NCBI RefSeq assembly: GCF_964204645.1
Contig: NC_134027.1
Span: forward strand, 11,148,485 to 11,212,484
From: Tubulanus polymorphus
Lineage: Eukaryota > Nemertea > Palaeonemertea > Tubulaniformes > Tubulanidae
DNA length: 64,000 bases
Direction: 5' to 3'
Made by a program: the position numbers and the translations under genes. Under the pieces are notes generated by a model. The model was not told where the DNA came from, ran no database searches, and saw only the letters and a program-made list of their open reading frames with translations. Of the stretch, positions 27,442 through 41,559 are shown in pieces (within the stretch, counting starts at the first letter, position 1; every line of letters starts with the position of its first letter).

Positions 27442-30344
27442 ATGGTTCGGATAATTCACGACGCGAAAATGGTCGGAAAATTGTTATTATTTTCAGTACT
27501 ATGGTTTGGAGTTTCCGGTAAAAACGTAGTACCGTACAATTTTACTAGCGATGTTTTATTCCCGCTATATTTGAATTTCGAACCGCCGGCCGTTGGAAAT
27601 TTATCGATGTGGGATGGTGTCGAATCGATTCGAGTGGAATATAAGTTCGATAGTCCGCAGACGGCGACTCGATGGATGGTGAAGATTGTATCAGACGATA
27701 CAGATTTGACGACGTTAAAAGATAGCAATGGAACATTTTTCTTAGATCCAGTTTCGACCACGGACAATATGACAGGAGGAACATTCAATTTCTCGATCCA
27801 CGGCCACTTTCTGGGTTTTACGAAACTTAAGATTTACGTGGCGAACGATACATATTTCGCCGAAACGAATTTGAGCTACTGGCGCGAGGTAATGGAGTAC
27901 CCAGTTACAGTTATCCGGCCACAAAGAAAGGTTGACGTTGTTTTCATGGTAGCTATAGCAATATTAGTAGTTGTCGGCAATGTAATGATGGGATCGAAAA
28001 TTGATTTAACAATCGTGAAGGACGTTCTCAGAAGACCATATTCCCCGATTATTGGCTTCTGCACACAATTCTTAATAATGCCACCGGTGAGTTTTAAGTT
28101 TTCCAATTATCGAGAACCCAGTGAGTTTTAATGAGCAATATGCACCCGAAGGGTTTGAGGTTGGTATTGTATAGGGTGTGGCCTAAAGGCGCCCGCCGCA
28201 CGAGCGTATTTTACAAGTCCGTACGCATTTAGCGCAGAATAGGCCCCACATGGCTCAGCAAAGGGAGCTATGGCAAGCATGTATTTTCATCATCCTTGTC
28301 AAATCTATTTGAACATAAGGGAATTCTTCTATGTTAAATCCTCTTATATCTATATCGAGATTGAGGGTCTTGTGAGGGGAAAACTATTTTTTTTTGAATC
28401 CCCATCCCTAAGATCCTTGGCCACACCCAGTGCAAACCTCAAACATTTCGGGTGCAAATTGCAAATCAAAACTCACTCCCAGACTATATTTTTTTGAAAA
28501 TGTCGAATGGCAATGATTCGTTTGAAAAATACTTTCATCAAAATATTCCCCATATCGGATCAGCTATCATTAATGAATTATTTGCGACATCGATATCACG
28601 ATTTCACGCGATAATCTTTTATCAAACTACCATAAACATGTTCGGAGTTTCTTATCTTTTGATATAATGCCAACGTCCACGCATATCCGCAAACAACTAC
28701 TATTGTCTTTGCCGAGTTATGTTTATAATTGCCAATTTTTCAATTCCTTTTGCGTAGTCTAATGGTAAATTTCACTGTTAATAAGTGCATTGGATGTGAA
28801 ATAAAATTGTAAGAATTACATTTTTCAAATTTCTCCACATTTTTTTTCAGCTGGCGTTTGGTCTCTCGAGAGCGTTGGGTTTGAATCCGAGTCAATCGAT
28901 AGGTCTTTTTGCATCAGGTTGCGCCCCTGGCGGTGGAGCCAGTAATATGTATACTTATCTCCTGAAAGGGGATCTTTCTTTGAGTATCACAATGACCTTA
29001 ATTTCGACAATAGCTTCCCTTGGTAAGTAGAGATAAGAAAACCAACTTCAAAATTTGTTGACGCCTTGAAAAGTGAACCAGTCTAGCCCTAATATATTGA
29101 TCATCCTGTCATGATTTATCAAATTTAAAATATGAGTTATGAAAAATGTTTGATTACAAAAAGAATCGCAGAAATTCACAAATGTTATTCTGAAACGCCG
29201 AATATCGATGGCGTAGTGCACATCGCCTCATACAGAACCCCTTAAAACGGGGTGTCAATATAGATATAATAATGATGTAATGTAATAATGTAACGGTACA
29301 ATAACCACACTCAAACGTGGTGCAAACGGATAATAAGATAAAAACCCACTACGTACAAAGATCTCTAGGGTGGAATGAAACGTCGTGTCTTATTTTTGAA
29401 TAGATAAATTCTCCATTTTAAGATTATTTCAATTCGAACAATATAGTGGGTTATCTTATTATTTTAATGGTTTTTACGGCGTAAACACTTTTTTAGTCGA
29501 GCTAATCATGACATGCATAAATGAGAACTAGTGAGGCTCAGTTTTTTGCGAATACATTTTATGACAACAGTTTGATCATCGTTACTTCATTTTCTACCCG
29601 TTTCTTATCGATTAAAGACTAAGGTTCTTTCATCTTCTTATTGTTTCAGGCATGATACCGCTGTGGATGTTCACGTTGGGAAACGTTGTTATACGAGAAA
29701 TACCGAATATGCAAATTCCGTACGAAAACATTTGTATAACGCTCGTATCTATCATCGCACCGGTCGGCGTGGGCGTGCTCCTGCAAAAGAAAGCTCCCAA
29801 ATTCACCAAGAAACTCGGCAAATGCATCCGTCCCTTTCTCATAATATTGATTCTGTTCATGACCACTTTCGGGTCGTGGGTAAACATGTACATCTTCAGG
29901 TTGTTCACGCCGAAAGTTCTTGTCGCCGGAATGCTACTACCCTGGACCGGTTTTGCTCTGGGCGGGCTCATACCGACGATTTTTCGCCGGCCGAAAAATC
30001 GAATACTAACCATAGCTATCGAGACCGGCATACAGAACACCGGCGTACCTATAATGTTGTTATTGTTCTCGCTGGAATCGCCGCAAGGCGACCTCGCGAT
30101 CGTAGCGCCTATAGCGCAGTCGATGTTCACGCCGCTTCCGCTGTTGTTTGCCATTGCGGTTTTCGAAACTCATAAAAGGTGTTGTAAAAAACGTAGTAAA
30201 GAAACGAAAGACGACGAAGATGAAATCCACCCAGATCTCGAGGAGGATGACGCTACTACCCAGCAATATTCAGTAGACGGACGATACATACCCGCTTATA
30301 AGGCGGTTCCGATGAAAGATATAAGTACGAACCAAATAAATTAG
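27442..30344 (+). CDS. SLC10-family sodium/organic-anion symporter (P3/SLC10A3-A5 type)
   Basis: Three exons: 27442-28086, 28851-29022 and 29650-30344 (TAG); 503 aa. A signal peptide (VGKLLLFSVLWFGVSG) is followed by a ~130-residue extracellular region with several N-x-S/T sites, then a multi-pass membrane domain. This is the architecture of SLC10A3/A5-like proteins rather than the shorter NTCP/ASBT. The diagnostic SLC10 motif GCAPGGGASNMYTYLLKGD matches the CPGG...SN...KGD signature, and ETGIQNTGVP matches the E-T-G-x-Q-N sodium-site motif. The C-terminal tail is charged (KETKDDEDEIHPDLEEDD). The start ATG at 27442 is the first in frame; a second at 27469 sits closer to the hydrophobic core. 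Substrates of the P3-type branch are poorly known, so bile-acid transport should not be assumed. It converges with the GPCR gene, with 225 bp between stop codons. AATAAA overlaps the stop region. Confidence 0.94.
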
Positions 30345-30569: not shown

Positions 30570-31694
30570 TTAACTTGAACGTCTTACGCGATGGAATGGC
30601 TTCGACAGAATTTCTCTGGCTGCGTTGCGAAAATTACCGTTTGTCAGACAATACACGAAGAAATTGGCGCACGAATCCATGACAGTTAGACCTATAGCCA
30701 TTTTTCTGTAGATCATCAGGGATTCCACTTCGTCGATTCCTTCGAGGTTCCACATCGGCAACGGTTTACCCATTGAGTAGTACAACTTTTCCAAAAACGT
30801 AAGAAATTCGAATACGATGTAAATGAAAACGACTGCCAGTGCCATGCGCGCAACCTTTTGTTCACGTGACGATTTCGCGTTGTCCTCGCTCGAAGTCGCG
30901 GTCAGTTTTTGTCGTCGATATTTATCGATTATTAGTGCTAAAACTAAAACGATGTTCATTCCGATCAACGTAGCCATCGGCGCGATTACGCTTAGTACGC
31001 TGGTTCCTACTCCATCTCTAAACCTGAACCAAACGCGCAAAACACATCCCATCATATCGTACCAAATAGAATATCCCCTCGTGACGTACGTAGGCAAACC
31101 CGTGTGTTTACATCGAAGCGGTTTCAGTTTGAACGTCGGAAAAAACGACGGCAAAAAAGTCACCAAAGATACGAAGTTGACGAATCCGATGAGGCGATTG
31201 ACGAGTTTACGCGTCCAGAAAACTCTCGCTTTCATCGGGAACACGACGATAACCAATCGTTCGAGCGACAAAAGAACGACGGACCAGTTTCTGACCAGCT
31301 GAAAATAGTAGTAAAACCCGATTGACGTGTAAATGAATTCCCAACCGTAGTGCCAGTCGTCGCGGCGGAGAACGATGTCGCCCAGCGTGCTAAACAAGTG
31401 AATTATTCGTAGCGGGTACAGAACGAAGACGCTGAGACAGTAGAGAATATCGAAAACGGCGAGTACTTTAATCAAGTAGTACACGGCGTTATTCAATTTC
31501 CGTAGAATCAATAACGTGAACAGATTGATGACGACGCCCATCACCGAAAACGGTCCGTAGAATCCGACGTACATGTAAACGCCGAATTTCAGCGTCCATT
31601 TGACCTTCAGATTTCTCCACGATTCACAGCGACTGTCAACGTCGGGTATCGCCGTTATCGCAGCTGCTGTACTCGGAGTCGAAAGATTTTCCAT
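30570..31694 (-). CDS. Intronless class A (rhodopsin-like) GPCR, copy 1
   Basis: A single exon of 374 aa with seven hydrophobic segments. Landmarks are Asn57 (1.50), Asp82 (2.50), an LER motif in place of DRY (Arg146 as 3.50), and DSCANFFVYC near 340-349 at the TM7 NPxxY position. The RNW motif at 135-137 occupies 3.39-3.41. Position 3.25, normally Cys, is Ile. A Cys in the N-terminus (Cys23) and one in ECL2 (Cys195) are instead conserved among the three receptors here. The TM7 pattern recalls invertebrate peptide receptors of the FMRFamide-receptor type, but the ligand is unknown. It is clearly paralogous to the gene at 34118-35239, 2.4 kb away in head-to-head orientation, and converges with the SLC10 gene. 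Confidence 0.93.
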   Translation of the reverse strand: MENLSTPSTAAAITAIPDVDSRCESWRNLKVKWTLKFGVYMYVGFYGPFSVMGVVINLFTLLILRKLNNAVYYLIKVLAVFDILYCLSVFVLYPLRIIHLFSTLGDIVLRRDDWHYGWEFIYTSIGFYYYFQLVRNWSVVLLSLERLVIVVFPMKARVFWTRKLVNRLIGFVNFVSLVTFLPSFFPTFKLKPLRCKHTGLPTYVTRGYSIWYDMMGCVLRVWFRFRDGVGTSVLSVIAPMATLIGMNIVLVLALIIDKYRRQKLTATSSEDNAKSSREQKVARMALAVVFIYIVFEFLTFLEKLYYSMGKPLPMWNLEGIDEVESLMIYRKMAIGLTVMDSCANFFVYCLTNGNFRNAAREILSKPFHRVRRSS

Positions 31695-32832
31695 ATCGTT
31701 GTTATTTTTAGAGCGGTTTTATCTTGCAAAATGCAACTCTGGTAATCATTTCGTCGATTTATATGAAGCAAAATTTGTATTGAATGTCTTCATTCGTCCA
31801 ATCAAAATCGACGACGGATTTCTTTTTTCTAAATATGCAAATGTGAGACGGACGGATACAAGTTTCTAAACTACGAATTTTGAAGCGAAAAAATATCTAC
31901 AATCTTACTGGATCCTCGATGAAGTTTGATTTTTAAAAAAATCAAATTTCATCGATTTCGTAATTATTATAATAGAATTTCAAGTTATATTTCAGTTCGC
32001 AATTTCGTGTGAATCTCGATGTTTTCGTTCTAAGCTGTTTACGACAACGATTTTCCCCTAATTTCAGTTCGTATCACGGACACATACTGAGATAAATACG
32101 CCTTCCAAATTGTACCGCGATGAGCTTGTCGATTCGAAAAATCAATTCGGATAGTTGAATATTTCGAAATATCCATCAATCCTGGATTGATTTTTAACTA
32201 TAAGGAAATTTGAAGTAAGGAGATCTGAAGTGTAAGAACGTATAGCCCCGGTTGAAAAATAAAAATTAAACTATGGCGATGGGCAATACATGTTCTTAAA
32301 GTTAAGCGAATTTTGAGACGTAAAAGAAATATATGTATATACTCATTATCCGAAGATTGGTGATAAAACTGGAACCTACAAGATTATGAAATATGTTTTA
32401 AATAATCAGATTTCATCAATTTTCCGTGTCGTATATCATAGAATTTGCAGTTATCTATTCTGTAATTTCGTAAATTCAGATGTTCTTATAGACTGTGCAA
32501 ATTGACATCTAAGGATTCGGCGAAGTAAAAATAGCCCCCACTGACCCAGTTGATTGGAAATATTGCATTATTATTTGTCAAATAACTCCCTCTCCGGTCC
32601 CTTTGGTGAAAGCTACGGAAGCATCATGGGGACATTGAAAATAAATTCAATGTGAACAGAAAATCTTATTTTTGTAAAGAAATTCCTATGTTTGAATGGA
32701 AAGTCATCGTAGCCTAGACAGCTCGTTGTATCTCATTAGAAAAATAAATTTGATGCTGCTGTTGTTTATTCGTTCATGCACACACTTTGATACTAGTCAC
32801 ATTCTGGGCCATATTCATATTCTGGGTTTATA

Positions 32833-32992: not shown

Positions 32993-33146
32993 TCTGTTTC
33001 GCAGAAGGACTTTGAGGAATTCAAGTCGTTCTGTGAAAGTGGGGCGACCCGATGACGACGATTAAGATTCTACTTACATTCTAAACTGGTCCCAGCGATT
33101 TATGTTTACATGATATATAAGCACATTGTAAAGATCACATAGGCCA

Positions 33147-33280
33147 TCACATTCGACATCGAATTCGACATCGAGAGGCAATTCCTACGGCAGCCTCGTT
33201 CAATAGAGTTATTTCCAATCCAGGATAAATCGGATTCATTTGTTTGATGTATTCAATAAATACATCCGAGTCATGGTCAC
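33147..33280 (-). other. Second copy of the last 5'-nucleotidase exon
   Basis: On the minus strand, after a good acceptor (cttttctttcag pattern, as at 36818), a 134-nt frame encodes GDHDSDVFIEYIKQMNPIYP, then LEITLLNEAAVGIASRCRIRCRM and a TGA. It is a clear duplicate of the terminal exon 36643-36818, differing by substitutions and an in-frame 6-nt deletion. Homology continues through the 3' flank (to ~33033) and part of the intron (to ~33322, 'aaacactcgaga'). No copy of the preceding exon is visible, so it is either an alternative last exon of the gene or a non-functional relic. The frame is intact and ends without the hydrophobic tail. Confidence 0.75.
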
Positions 33281-34117
33281 CTGAAAGAAAATCTGATTTC
33301 AATTTTCTAAACACTCGAGATTCACAGTTAAAAGATATTCCAGTTCGAATTTTAAGATACTACAAATAAGAAGTTAACTATTCTTATCAATTCTAACAAC
33401 TTATTCAATTCTAAGAATTTACTTAAGAATTTATCAAAACGAAAGAGTCCATTGCACAGTTAAAATATATTGCAGTCTCATTGCGAATGAATAAAATTGG
33501 AGAAACATCTTGCTCTTCTTGAAAATCACCAAGCGGGGTTTTTTACCTGGACTTTTATCCAGGGGATATTTACCTACATTCCTTCGAACGATATTCCAAA
33601 GAAACCCTAATAAAAGTCGGTCAAATCATCGGTCGCCTTCTTTGAGGTGATTTTGCCCCACAGTTTTTATCAACTACATCAAGTTAGGTCTCATCGCCTC
33701 AGGGTTGGTTCCACCACATTTAGCTTTACATGACGCACCCGAGAATTCAAAAGTTTTGCTCTAGCCTCGCAGAAATTTTTTTTAGGATGGCCCGAATCAG
33801 CCACCATACTTTATCAACTACACATCAAGTTCTAATATATCAAGGTTTAATATATTATTTCGCCTCAGGTTGGTTCCACCACATTTAGCTTCACATGACT
33901 CACCCGATTCTGAAATAGCATGCTATAGCATGGTGTCAACTGCAAGGCTATAATTTAGACATTTCAACGAGAGATTTAGGACATTGAAGACGTCATCACA
34001 CTGAGGATCGGCATCAGAGCTGAATGGAATTCATTCTGTCTGATGCAGCCGAATAGGTAACTGAACACGCGCTTGTCTGATACAGACGCCATTGATTCGA
34101 TCATCAGACGATACGAT

Positions 34118-35239
34118 ATGGATGCAAGGAATATTTCAACGACTTTAGAACCTACTGCTAAAACCTGGTCTGGATTGTGTGAACGGGTAGTGAATACTAA
34201 ACCGTACCGCTGGGAACTGAAATTTAGTGTTTACATGTATATTTTCTGTTATGGACCCGTCACGATACTCGGCGTCGCTTTAAACTTTTTCACAATTATC
34301 GTATTGAAGAAGATGAAAAATGAAGTATATTATTTGCTCAAAGTTTTGGCTATTTATGATTTATCTTACTCTATATGTGTATTTATCATGTACCCTCTAC
34401 GCACTATTCATATCTATATACATTTGGGTAAACTTCTATTTTATCATGATGACTGGAATTACGGATGGGAATTTATACAAGTGATTTTAGGACCATATTA
34501 CATGTTTCAACAAATTCGAAACTGGTGCGTTATCCTTATAGCTTTAGAAAGACTTGTCATTACACTTTTCCCGTTGAAATCACGAATGTACTGGACTCGG
34601 AAAGTGGTTAACTTTCTCATATTCTTTATGACAGTTTATGGGTTTGTTTGCTTTTTCCCGTTGTTGTTGCCAAAGCGTACGCTTCGGTCAATCGCTTGTA
34701 TCGATGGGGATCCAGGGGCGACATTAGTACGAGGTCCGCGCCTCTCTTATCGCAACTCTATATCATTAACCGTAAGAAGACTATTATATAATTGGGAGCA
34801 TCATTCGACTAGTTGGGAAGGAACAATATCCAGTATGGTTGGACCCATGTGTTTACTGGTGCTTATAAATTTTATTTTGATTGTCAGTTTGATAGTTGCT
34901 AAACTATCAAGCGGTAAGAAATTGAATAAGAGCGCCACCAGCAGTAGGAATGTAAAAATGAGAGTTTTACGAATGACGTTTGCTGTAATCGCTGTTTACA
35001 TTACTTGTGAATCGTTGATTACAATCGAAAGAATTAACTACAAATTTCCGTTCATCAAACTTCATTTTCCGGGATTGAGCTTCGCCGAAGCATCAATATT
35101 TGCATACCGAAGAGTAGCCATTGCTTTGACGGTCGTCGATTCGTGTTTAAACTTTGTAGTTTATTGTTTTACTAATGATAAATTCAGACTGGCTTCTAAA
35201 CAAATTGGCGCCATATCTTTGATTCGTCTGAAATGTTAA
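34118..35239 (+). CDS. Intronless class A GPCR, copy 2
   Basis: A single exon; 373 aa from the first ATG at 34118. The frame extends 15 codons upstream without an ATG. Seven membrane segments are visible, with Asn56 (1.50), Asp81 (2.50), LER (Arg145) for DRY, RNW at 134-136 and DSCLNFVVYCFT in TM7. NIS near the N-terminus is a glycosylation sequon. Cys21 and Cys194 (ECL2) align with Cys23 and Cys195 of the receptor at 30570-31694, and both lack Cys at 3.25. The two share long identical stretches such as VYYLxKVLA, YPLRxIH and DDWxYGWEFI, so they arose by local duplication. ECL2 is longer here. A degraded LINE begins within about 25 bp of the stop, so the native 3' UTR may be replaced. Confidence 0.92.
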   Translation: MDARNISTTLEPTAKTWSGLCERVVNTKPYRWELKFSVYMYIFCYGPVTILGVALNFFTIIVLKKMKNEVYYLLKVLAIYDLSYSICVFIMYPLRTIHIYIHLGKLLFYHDDWNYGWEFIQVILGPYYMFQQIRNWCVILIALERLVITLFPLKSRMYWTRKVVNFLIFFMTVYGFVCFFPLLLPKRTLRSIACIDGDPGATLVRGPRLSYRNSISLTVRRLLYNWEHHSTSWEGTISSMVGPMCLLVLINFILIVSLIVAKLSSGKKLNKSATSSRNVKMRVLRMTFAVIAVYITCESLITIERINYKFPFIKLHFPGLSFAEASIFAYRRVAIALTVVDSCLNFVVYCFTNDKFRLASKQIGAISLIRLKC

Positions 35240-35261
35240 AATCCCTTCGTTTTCGAAAAAT

Positions 35262-36140
35262 ATTCCTTACTGTCCTCGTGCATCTGCTATCCTAAAGCTG
35301 ATTTCATTTGCTGATGACACGAATGCTTTCTATAGTGATCATCTCATTGACCGCCTAATAGATACAATCAATACTGAACTTTCGAAACTTGTTGTTTGGT
35401 TTTGTGCCAACAAGTTATCAATTAATATTAGTAAAACTTATTATATCATATCTAGTAAAACTGTTGTTGGTAATGCAAAGATTTATATCGATGATCATGA
35501 AATTGAACGTGTCCATACTACCAATTTTTTGGGGGTTTTAATAGATGAAAAACTGTCAAGGGATGATCACATAAGGGATGATCATTTTTATATGTAAAAA
35601 GGTGTCACGTTGTGTTGGCGTTCTACATCGTGTTAAACACAAGTTTTCTTCCAATTCTTCACGTACCTTGTACTTATCCTTAATAGAGCCATATCTTCAA
35701 TATTGTAACATTGTTTGGGAAAGAACTTCTGATTATAAACTGCATACATTAACAATCCTACAAAAACGTGCTGTCCGTTTGGTCAGCAAATCCCATTATT
35801 TAGAACATACTGATCCTATTTTTGCTCGGTTAAATAAACTAAAAATTAAGAATATTAACAAACTCCAACTAGCTATTTTTGTACATAAATTCGTCAATTC
35901 AAGATTGCCCAGGACCTTTAACAACATTGGATCTTCAATTATCAAATTCATGATAAACCAACGCGTAATAAATTTAGATTAAGATTGCTTTATTTTAGAA
36001 CTGTTACTAGAAAATCTTATTTCAAAATATCCGGTCTCCTATTATGGAATACTCCAGCAGAACAATACAAAGCGAACCTGCCTTTAAGCGTACCTACATT
36101 AAAACAATATTCAACACTTTGTAAATTTTCATTCTATAAA
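35262..36140 (+). mobile_element. Non-LTR retrotransposon (CR1/L2-like) 3' fragment, frameshifted
   Basis: Translates to the C-terminal half of a reverse transcriptase. It contains the catalytic FADDTN box (~35308), LSKLVVWFCANKLSINISKT and TNFLGVLIDEKLS. After a small duplication of 'gggatgatcacataagggatgatca' near 35560-35585 the frame shifts, and the thumb region continues as GVLHRVKHKFSSNS, YLSLIEPYLQYCNIVWE and LTILQKRAVRLVSKSHY to a stop at 35982. The 5' part, including the endonuclease, is missing, as is usual for 5'-truncated LINEs. Short 'caatttcaattt' repeats near 36262 may be the 3' tail. The element is dead: it is truncated and out of frame. Confidence 0.9.
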
Positions 36141-36642
36141 AACCTATGTTAATGTGTAAAATGTGAAAATTTTTTTTTGGTTTCTTTTTGCCTGTTTATT
36201 ACTTGTGTGCATGATGTGTGAGTGTGATGAATGTTATGTGGGATGTGGATGCTTCTGGCTTCAATTTCAATTTCAACTCATTTTCAAACATTTTCCCCAG
36301 TTCTTTCAATGCATTTTGCTAAACAACTCAACACGTAATTGTCAATCAAAATGAAACTCATCTCCCGATTCCACGAAAAGTAGTTCTTTACTTTTATACT
36401 GATATGTATAAATTTTGATAATGTTTACGCCTTTTATTTCAAAAATCCCGTTTGAAAATAATGACACAAAATAGGATCATCTCAACTCCGAGTAGAAAAG
36501 GAAGAAAGTAAAGCTTTTATCACCGTCAAATCCATCCCTCTCCGCCCCCGTGGTATTTCTGTGGAAGTGGGGCGACCCGATCACGACGGTTAAGATTCTA
36601 CTTATGTTCTAAACTGGTCACAGCGATATCTGTGATTTTTAT

Positions 36643-39600
36643 TTACACGATATATAACCACATAATTGTTAAGATCACATAAGTCGTTGCATAAATTCGA
36701 CATCGTGAGGCAATTCCTACGGCATCCTCGTTCAGTAGAGTTATTCGTCTTTCCAATCCAGGATAAATCGGACTCATTTGTTTGATGTATTCGATAAATA
36801 CATCAGAGTCAAGGTCACCTGAAAGAAAATCATAAGTTTTTTTATGGTTATCTAGTCCGATTTTACTTTTTTAAACACTCGAGATAAACAGAAGGTTTCT
36901 GGTTACCGAGAAGGTGAATCTTTCTCGCTTTTTTAGCGATCATTGAATAACCGTCGCCTCCTTTAACCATGTAATCACTGAGAAGAACTTTGTACGATCG
37001 GTTCAATTCCAGCGGCTGATAGCGTGGCACTAGACATTCGGAACACCTTACTTCCACGTTAACGACTCTATGACCGTTCAACTTCGCCAGGTCATATGTA
37101 ATCCAAATTCCTGTGAATAATTCTAGAAATTCTATTCGGAATTCTAATTGCACAATAAAACGATTTTAAGGCGTTTGTAAAAAAACAATTTGCAATTTGT
37201 GTGATTTTTTTTACATGGCCGGAATCAGCAACCATAAATTCCATATACATTTTCGGTTTATTTTTTTACACATTCAAGAAATGAAGAGAAAAGGGAAGTT
37301 TCCATTTACCAGGCGAAGGAAACGAACGCTATCGGAAAATAGAAATCACCGATTTTTCTATTATCTTGAAATAGGGATTGGCCCTATAATTTATTTGATT
37401 GAGATTTCGTTTGATTTGTTTGATTTGTCGTCCCTTACAAACCCGACACACCTGCCGGGATCGAAGCACGGGGTTTGATTCTAAAATTGAGAATGGAAGT
37501 ACGGACATGAAGTTGTGTGATCGACGTGCGAAATTATAAAATGTTTTTTTGTTTTGATCGAAGTACATGATTTGAAATTGTCACCTTTTTAACGATTTAT
37601 CACTTATACTTTTTTGGCAAAGGGCAGACGGAAAATACATAAATTGCGCTAAGGGTCTTAGTGTATGAAATGTTAAAAATCTCTCCAACAGCATAGTGCG
37701 GGACCGCCTCAAAATGGAGCCTGACAACGGAAACGTCCCTAGATTACCTGAATATTGTAAAAAACGACCACGCAATGCTTTAGGGTTATAATCCCGCACA
37801 GAATGTTCCAATACTTCCAGCAAATCCTCGCCTTTCAGTTGCACGATGTCTACAGTATTTCTAAATGGCAAAACTCGAAGAGCATCTTCGATGGATATAT
37901 CACCTGAAATTTAGAATAGATTTTGATTTTTTTCTCAAAATTATTTGACTAATTGATTTGATGCTAATTTGGAGTGGCCTTTAAAAATATAGATACATTT
38001 AATTTACATGAATCTTTTTGAGTTTTTAAACAAAAGTTTTCTGTTCAAGTTTTTAAGATATATAGTTCTATATACGATATATACCTTGAATTTTGTTTTT
38101 ATTTGTGCGTTTTTGAACTTTTTATCGAGGGATTTGTTACCGGCTGAATTGGATTGAGTTACTGAGTTACTGAGTTACTTAACCCTTATTTATGGAAGCT
38201 CTGATGCCACCTCCATTCCACATAGCTATAGATACGTTAGTCCACCGAGAGCCGTCCGAGTAGCGAATATTCTGATGAATCATTGCATCCGTTATCAGAT
38301 TACCTGAAATTAAACGATGACTTTTAAAGCACAACACTATTGCATCATTTCAAGTTTCAACAATTTATCGGGTGTATTGCCTGACTTTCTCGATCATGGA
38401 AAATTCAATGAATATTTCTTTCGCATAACTGAGGAAGCGTCTTAATACTAAGGAGTTCCGGGAACTTAGTGTTATATATTCGTTTACACTTATACTTCGT
38501 ATGTCACATAGAAAATATATTTTTCATTAACACATATTTTTCTGGTGATTGAGTACCTATGGTGAAATATAATTGAAAAAAAAACAAAATTTGGGAATTC
38601 TTGGCCTATTCTTTATCTGAAAGTCGCAGAAAATTCAACCGAAAAATTTTATGTGAGGAAAAAAATTACGCAGTCGGATTGACAATCCAATTGGCGTTTT
38701 CAGACATCTATGTAACAAGCTCAAATATCAAATATGAATCACATTACACATTGGAAATCCTTACCAGTATTGCACTCGTGCAGACGGCACTTTGACCTGC
38801 TCCCCTCGAGAAATACGTGCGTCTTTCCAATAATTTCCGCTCCAATATTCTTTAGAGGTTCGGCCCAATTTCGTATCTCACCGAGCACAAATTTGTCTTA
38901 CAAAAAGCCAAAAAAAAAGCAAATAGTTTTTCAGTTGGGTTAGGTTGCGCCGCGTGAAAATGCCAAATACTGACCTTCGGGTACCGAAGAATCCAATAGG
39001 ATCGGATTACCGGACCAGTCTTTCAAACGCCCTGCTTCGTCAAAAGTCACGTGCAAACAGCCGAGATACTTTCCAAAAGCGTAGTCCTGAACGATCAGTA
39101 CAATACTGCCATCTTTTCTAGCTACAACGTGTGGATAATCCCCCGCGGGAACTTCCTCTGAAGGTGCTTTCCCTTTAAAGAGGAACAGTTTAGAAGTATT
39201 CGAAATCAACAATGACTGATACTATAAGTAATGGAAATATGAATCTAATGACAAAAACCCAGTCCTAGAAATCTTTCTTACGAAAATCTTTACGGTAATA
39301 TAGCGGAGCCTCATCAACAAGGGTAATCACCCCAGTGAGCAGACTCGGACAAAAGGTTCACCGGGAACCGAATGGCTGATGGACTGGCTCACCGGGGTTC
39401 AAACTTTCGGCTGTGAGCCAAAGACCACCATGAGCCACGAATACAGGAGTAAACTTGACTCTAGGGTTGAGATATTGGAATTGAAATTAAATCTAGCATC
39501 AAAATTGAGATCAATCACTGCAGAATCAGTACGTGAAAGTTGGAAAGTTTATATAAGTGTATCAGGAAAATCAATTACGTTTATTCATTTCTAGAATTTG

Positions 39601-41559
39601 CATTCCTGCTTAAGCTATGGTGCCTGATAAGAGCCATATGCATTATTTTTGCATGATCTCGATCATGGAAAAACGCAAAGTAAAACTCTTAGAGCAAAAA
39701 CGAAAACTTCGCTTTTGCGCCGTAGCAAAAACTTAGCATTTTCCCTACCGCGAAAAACCGAAAAATTGTAGGGAATTCGTTTTTGCTCTAGTATGACTTT
39801 CTTTTTTCGCCATGATTTTCGTTTTTGCGCCGTAGCAAAAACCAATGTTCGCACTCGAATTCTATACAATCACTTTATGGAAAGACATCATCCGGTCAGT
39901 ATCCAGTTTACTTGGTTACTACGGTCCCAACGCTATAATCCGACTCTACTTGGTAAACATTTTGAGATTACGTCTAATCGCTCCCTTGATCATTTCCCGA
40001 CGCGTTTCTCCTATCAATAATTCATACCTGTATATAAGAATGTATTCGTATGCCCGCCAACAATCACGTCGATACCGGAGACTTTTTCGGCAATCTGTAA
40101 ATCAACGTCGATACCAGCGTGTCCGACAGCGATAATTTTATTCACACCTTCGGACAAAAGTTTGTTCACTTCTTCTTGAATGGTGGAAATTTCGTTTTCA
40201 AATATCAGCGTCGGACCTTAGTAAAATAGAGCAAAGCGTAGATTGGCTGGAGGGATACAACTTAGCTTAAATACCATGATGTCAACTGGTTAACTTTTGT
40301 CCACCTTGTGAATACTCAGGGGCGGATACAGGATTGTTGGGTTCACCCATCTATTTAGGGGAAACGTTCAGAGAAAGGACACAAAGACGAGGATCAAAGA
40401 CTGGAAGACTCGGTGTCCTTTTGATGAATTATGATAATTTAAGACATTTTCGGACTACCGTTACTTCAGTCAAATAAAAACAAATAGCATCGCCCAAACA
40501 GGATTTACATTTCCTTTCCAAATACTCCTTTAACTGGGTCATTATGATTCTAAATACAGTAAAAGCAACACTTTTGTGAAATAAGCACAGATTATTTCTT
40601 TTTTTTGGGTTTTTTCCTAGAATATACCAAACGCAGTACTGAACAAATGCTAATGCAAAGGTGTTTACAAAAAACTAACACAGTGGCAACAGGTTTTATT
40701 CACTTCACTGATGCCATCTGAAGGAAGCTTTTTAAAAAGGACACTTGACCAAAGGGTTCGAACTCCCTGTATCCGCCCATGATGTCCTTGATTATTTCTT
40801 GAAATAGGGATTGGCCCAGTTGTTTATTTGGTCGGTAGATTTAGTTTGATTTTTTGCTTAGTGCCCTTACAAATCCACCACACCTGCCGGGAGCGAAACA
40901 GGAGGTCCTTGATCGTTAACCTTACCTGGAGATGAGAGTTGTGGTGTATCACTAGTTGTATAACCTACTACACCTATCTTCTCCCCATCGATAAGAAAAT
41001 GCGTTGACTTTCTAAACGCCCCGTTTAACTTAGGTTCTTTCGATGCATCGATGTTGCAGCTGAGCAGTGGAAACGAAACGTTCCGAACAAGCGGTAAAAG
41101 CCCATCAACGCCAATATCGAATTCGTGATTTCCGAACGCCTAGTATAAAACGAAATGAAGGAAAGGAATCGAAATGAAATTTAACCAAGCGACAAGATAA
41201 TGTAGATAAGCTATACCACTTACCATAGCGTCGTATTTAAGAAGATTCATAAAGTGAGCCGTTGCCAAGCCTTTGTAGAGATAAAACCACAATGTTCCCT
41301 GATATTGGTCCCCGGCATCCAACAACAAGCTATTCGCATATCGAGACCGTAGTTCTCTGATTTTCGTCATCCGCCGAGCCACTCCTCCAAAACAAGGCTT
41401 CTGATCGGTGTCGTTGGTGCAGCTGCCTCCCGAGTCGTTGGTTTCTTCGAATCGAGCGTGAACATCATTCGTATGAATCAACGTCAAATTGAAACAGAAA
41501 AACGTTTCCTGAATAACAACGAATAACACTATCACGAGATATAGTCGACCATTTTGCAT
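36643..41559 (-). CDS. NT5E: Ecto-5'-nucleotidase (CD73-like)
   Basis: Nine exons on the minus strand: 41559-41224, 41139-40926, 40216-40028, 39172-38975, 38896-38765, 38303-38184, 37903-37748, 37110-36907 and 36818-36643 (TAA). Phases agree and the total is 574 aa, the same length as human CD73. It hydrolyses extracellular AMP to adenosine. A signal peptide (YLVIVLFVVIQETFFCF) precedes the metallophosphatase domain: HTNDVHARFEE, LLDAGDQYQGTLW, GNHEFD, VGHAG and GGHTNTFLYTG supply the metal ligands. The C-terminal substrate domain has CRLHECNTGNLITDAM, MWNGGGIR, VLPFRNTVDIVQLKG and KGGDGYSMI; the last carries Tyr where human CD73 has the stacking Phe500. The end, ASRCRIYATTYVILTIMWLYIV, fits a GPI-anchor signal. 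An AATAAA overlaps the stop. It diverges from the GPCR at 42430. A second last exon lies at 33147-33280. Confidence 0.95.
37364..37502. repeat. Dispersed repeat family H, copy 2
   Basis: Blocks aatagggattggccctata, cccttacaaacccgacacac and ctgccgggatcgaagcacgg occur in the same order as at 21901 and 40793. Lies in nucleotidase intron 7. A family A end (ggccggaatcagcaaccata) sits just before it at 37217-37236. Confidence 0.6.
39655..39845. repeat. Foldback element with repeated 'gcgccgtagcaaaaac' motif
   Basis: The motif tttttgcgccgtagcaaaaac (or cttttgcgccgtagcaaaaac) occurs at 39712-39732 and 39821-39841, each itself near-palindromic. Inverted blocks agagcaaaaacgaa and attcgtttttgctct lie between. 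The ends read gatcatggaaaaacg and cgccatgattttcg. Lies in nucleotidase intron 3. Confidence 0.6.
40317..40781. repeat. hAT-like non-autonomous element, family E
   Basis: Ends caggggcggatacaggatt and cctgtatccgcccatg are inverted repeats. Non-coding, in nucleotidase intron 2, immediately followed by a family H repeat. Confidence 0.6.
40793..40911. repeat. Dispersed repeat family H, copy 3
   Basis: Contains aatagggattggcccagtt, cccttacaaatccaccacac and ctgccgggagcgaaacagg, matching the other family H copies. It ends ~15 bp before the donor-side exon at 40926. Confidence 0.6.

Follow-up and report, generated by a model that had tools for sequence, protein, structure and literature searches.

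Does the ecto-5'-nucleotidase gene of Tubulanus polymorphus have two alternative last exons, one for a membrane-anchored enzyme and one for a soluble enzyme? A preliminary description of the window (the whole stretch of 64,000 nucleotides analysed here) proposed that it does, because the terminal exon of the gene occurs a second time, with a GPCR gene and a LINE in between. We find that the exon duplication is real, single and young, and that the copy is splice-competent but probably decaying. The likely explanation, in our judgement, is that the distal exon is a relic or barely used duplicate, copied at the DNA level and now drifting.

A nucleotidase gene and a copy of its last exon

The window contains a complete CD73-like ecto-5'-nucleotidase gene on the minus strand (41559-36643), with nine exons that are all spanned by an open reading frame of 574 amino acids (Table 1). 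Its introns are all GT-AG, and all of them from intron 2 onward are in phase 1. The protein has the Metallophos (PF00149) and 5_nucleotid_C (PF02872) domains, both above the Pfam cut-off, and a phmmer search against CD73 structures gives an E-value of about 1e-169, with residues 8-544 matching vertebrate CD73. By this domain pair and near full-length similarity, the gene is an ecto-5'-nucleotidase. With its proximal last exon it shares with CD73 (NT5E) the full domain architecture, the signal peptide and the hydrophobic C-terminal tail. The contrast drawn earlier between a proximal form with such a tail and a distal form without one is borne out by mean hydropathy over the last 16 residues (1.64 for the proximal form vs 0.18 for the distal form). 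A hydrophobic C-terminus is thus predicted for the proximal form only, and this form is presumably the anchored one. At the proximal exon an AATAAA overlaps the stop codon, and further AATAAA signals lie 3' of it at 36438, 36200 and 35994. The donor of intron 8, GTAACC, is a weak match to the consensus, and if this intron were retained the frame would read GNQKPSVYLECLKK-stop (36907-36862), which is a second and simpler path to a tailless product.

Table 1. Coordinates of the main features in the window.
Feature	Position	Strand	Remarks
Ecto-5'-nucleotidase, exons 1-8	36907..41559	-	Signal peptide and catalytic domains; GT-AG, ORF, Pfam, phmmer
Exons 1-4	41559-41224, 41139-40926, 40216-40028, 39172-38975	-	
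Exons 5-8	38896-38765, 38303-38184, 37903-37748, 37110-36907	-	
Proximal last exon	36643..36818	-	Ends YATTYVILTIMWLYIV-stop; hydrophobic GPI-type tail
Source of duplicated unit	36557..36891	-	3' part of intron 8, exon 9, proximal 3'UTR; true homology limit near 36886
Full distal duplicated unit	33029..33327	-	Acceptor region, exon, 3'UTR; alignable part about 33322-33029
Distal last-exon copy	33147..33280	-	Ends ASRCRIRCRM-stop; without hydrophobic tail
Dispersed repeat, truncated copy	33328..33577	.	Adjoins distal unit; junction inside repeat
Rhodopsin-type GPCR-like gene, single exon	34120..35239	+	Between exon copies; 7tm_1 E 8e-5, below Pfam cut-off
LINE fragment	35269..36260	+	Many copies in the genome at about 90% identity; insertion in 3' flank of GPCR gene

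The last exon of this gene has been copied once. Sequence comparison agrees with the preliminary description that acceptor, phase and frame were kept in the copy. At about 300-335 bp, the duplicated unit extends beyond the exon to which that description confined it, into the 3' end of intron 8 on one side and about 85 nt into the 3'UTR on the other. The similarity between the exon copies is far above chance (E = 1.9e-53), and a genome-wide search finds the unit at two places only, proximal and distal. The exon 8/9 junction is in phase 1, with its donor GT at 36906 and acceptors ending at 36819 and 33281. The acceptor and the preceding 13 nt are identical in both copies and the polypyrimidine tract is intact in the distal one, which lacks one 26-nt piece of intron 8. 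When exon 8 is joined to the distal exon the frame continues through 42 open codons and ends ...GIASRCRIRCRM-stop (also given as ...IHLLGDHDSDVFIEYIKQMNPIYPGLEITLLNEAAVGIASRCRIRCRM-stop). The distal unit is therefore a duplicated terminal exon: it is homologous to the last exon, keeps its phase and brings adjoining intron and UTR sequence with it.

Besides the gene in the window, the genome (268 Mb in 77 contigs) contains three more nucleotidase genes, which we call A (C3:6.136 Mb), B (C3:20.747 Mb) and C (C9:14.83 Mb). Two are on the same contig as the window, millions of bases away, and one is on another contig. Each has its own last exon, so the distal exon is not part of another complete nucleotidase gene. 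The window gene and C have a hydrophobic tail; A and B stop at GLExRITMIK, are tailless (loci C3:6135600-6138700 and C3:20746700-20750000), and their products are presumably secreted. Since two of the four nucleotidase genes end without a tail, membrane-type and tailless enzymes are encoded in this species by separate genes.

Divergence of the distal exon

The copies were described as differing by substitutions and one in-frame 6-nt deletion, and this is what we find: there are seven coding substitutions, and two arginine codons have been lost from the distal copy. Over the 40 shared codons the substitutions comprise 3 nonsynonymous and 4 synonymous differences. The resulting dN/dS of 0.21, a comparison suggested in the preliminary description, is below 1 yet fits a neutral distal copy. 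In simulations with a constrained proximal copy and a neutral distal copy, 27-30% of runs had no more than 3 nonsynonymous differences among 7, although the point estimates fit a little better with an intermediate level of constraint on the distal copy than with none. These counts cannot decide the question, because 3 nonsynonymous and 4 synonymous differences are compatible with neutrality. Nor is the coding sequence clearly better conserved than the intron and UTR (7 differences in 119 sites vs 14 in 124; Fisher P = 0.17, or P = 0.05 if the tail region is counted as noncoding). We rejected the retention of frame and acceptor as proof of selection, because most neutral copies of such age stay open (56-76% of those simulated would hold all 42 codons).

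Using the three other nucleotidase genes to polarise the changes, we found that the replacement of leucine by histidine, the replacement of serine by asparagine and the loss of the arginine pair are all derived in the distal copy, because the leucine (CTT), the serine (AGT) and the arginine of the LExRI motif are common to the proximal exon and to A, B and C, among which they are invariant. This arginine also occurs in vertebrate CD73. Three amino-acid-changing differences could be polarised and the rest could not; no polarisable change falls in the proximal copy. The numbers are small, but the pattern suggests that constraint on the distal copy has been relaxed.

The way in which the tail was lost differs from the earlier account, in which a repeated 12-nt unit brought in the early stop codon. 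The unit is in frame, and when it is removed in silico the distal exon still ends ASRCRM-stop, which rules it out as the cause. The early stop instead results from another change beyond the unit, in which a net 4 nt were lost and the frame was shifted. The homologue of the old hydrophobic tail (YVIFTMCLYIM) persists in the distal copy, but in another frame, which reads AYVIFTMCLYIM and reaches a stop at the corresponding site. Because this remnant is still legible, the distal tail region has the look of a recent frameshift.

Origin and surroundings of the copy

On its upstream side the distal unit runs directly into the interior of a dispersed repeat, of which we scored at least 40 genomic copies that are about 80% identical. 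Other copies of the repeat extend for at least another 200 bp that the window lacks, so an insertion of the exon into a repeat with both halves kept does not account for the structure. Where the two meet, ACTCGAGATAAACAG of the proximal sequence and AACAAGAGTTCACAG of the repeat have only a few letters in common around GAG, which fits a random DNA rearrangement of the microhomology type. The intron sequence that the unit carries excludes simple retroposition of a spliced mRNA. That same intron sequence, which implies copying at the DNA level, would also suit an origin as the leftover of a tandem duplication that took in more of the nucleotidase gene and later lost the other exons, and a duplication followed by deletion would leave a piece of this kind. 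We regard this origin as unlikely, however, because there is no other nucleotidase exon fragment nearby, and the edge fused inside the repeat is explained equally well by a small direct copy.

The presence of a GPCR gene and a LINE between the exon copies, as previously described, was confirmed. The GPCR-like gene is intact and belongs to a dispersed family, with intact paralogues at C3:24.566 Mb and C3:25.46 Mb on the same contig (80-83% identity). At C3:24.566 Mb the paralogous gene comes with the same 3' flank but no LINE, which indicates that the LINE was inserted at the present locus; we looked for a target-site duplication around it and found none that was convincing. The 3' flank of the GPCR gene is 74% identical to that of its paralogue, compared with about 87-90% between the exon copies in intron and UTR, so the duplication of the GPCR family is probably older than that of the exon. 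A second, similar single-exon GPCR-like gene lies in the opposite orientation at 30570-31694 (minus strand), and a partial ORF of the sodium/bile-acid symporter family (SBF, PF01758) is at 29652-30344 (plus strand). Upstream of the plus-strand GPCR gene there is a 40-nt direct repeat (33703-33742 and 33868-33907; 95% identical, 165 nt apart).

Possible uses of the distal exon

Could the distal exon nevertheless be functional? The proposal that surface-bound versus secreted adenosine production is set by splicing is sound as regards the anatomy, and its functional part lacks positive support, with the polarisable amino acid changes derived and at conserved sites. It would require one recent terminal-exon duplication to have created a choice, controlled by splicing across a 3.6-kb intron with an antisense GPCR gene inside it, between a secreted form (36907 joined to 33280) and an anchored one (36907 joined to 36818). 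The acceptor, phase, frame and 42 codons have been kept, the 6-nt deletion is in frame and the hydrophobic tail is absent, all as such a switch would have it, and the low dN/dS and the slight preference of the simulations for intermediate constraint lean the same way. Downstream of the distal exon there is one AATAAA, at 32770, which is 377 nt beyond the exon's stop codon, and the tailless paralogues A and B suggest that tailless enzymes are viable. Against this, every polarisable amino acid change is in the distal copy and at a conserved site, the tail was lost through a frameshift, and transcription would need to continue past the proximal poly(A) signals and through both the LINE and the antisense GPCR gene. 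The tailless genes A and B would, moreover, already provide soluble enzyme. A genome search also found no second last exon in any of the three paralogues. On balance we consider a functional switch improbable.

Still more doubtful is transcription of the distal copy as a non-productive exon, in which a GTAAGT donor on the minus strand (33077-33072, 70 nt past the distal stop), made by one difference from the ATAAGT of the proximal copy, would be joined to downstream exons and might lead to nonsense-mediated decay or supply a 5'UTR for the minus-strand GPCR gene (31694-30570); a same-strand gene does lie downstream, but GTAAGT occurs in the window at about chance level (32 hexamers vs 28 expected).

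We therefore return to the relic or barely used duplicate as our preferred reading. A DNA-level segmental duplication would have placed a copy of about 300 bp, running from the last part of intron 8 through exon 9 into the 3'UTR, beyond the GPCR gene, with one breakpoint landing inside a dispersed repeat. Normal splicing would use the proximal exon and give the anchored ecto-5'-nucleotidase. The distal copy, still splice-competent, would be drifting, with amino acid changes at conserved sites and a frameshifted tail, and would be spliced in rarely at most.

Among the papers that we searched, we found none on alternative splicing of a nucleotidase between GPI-anchored and soluble forms by choice of last exon. 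In humans the splice form CD73S, which is inactive and cytoplasmic, is made without exon 7 (PMC7174602), and unlike the arrangement in the window it does not involve an alternative last exon. Among blood-feeding arthropods, enzymes and apyrases of the 5'-nucleotidase family have become secreted by losing the GPI-anchoring C-terminus (PMC5307786, PMC7396615); this occurred by whole-gene duplication, seemingly as in the tailless paralogues A and B, with no second last exon. In acetylcholinesterase the choice of C-terminal exon decides anchoring (PMC5943944), but there alternative exon use is established, whereas the exon described here is a recent, probably decayed duplicate. In uromodulin, splicing removes the exon that codes for the GPI signal and the resulting form is intracellular (PMC12165797), which advises caution in equating a lost GPI signal with secretion. 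Tandem duplications of terminal exons are used alternatively in some genes, sometimes in a mutually exclusive way (PMC9013439); the terminal exon is likewise duplicated here, but a GPCR gene and a LINE separate the copies.

An open frame and an intact acceptor are by themselves no proof of function. Were the distal exon used, the gene would have a switch for extracellular adenosine production that arose very recently by exon duplication. The likelier alternative is that the exon illustrates how splice-competent duplicate exons are born by random DNA rearrangement and then decay.
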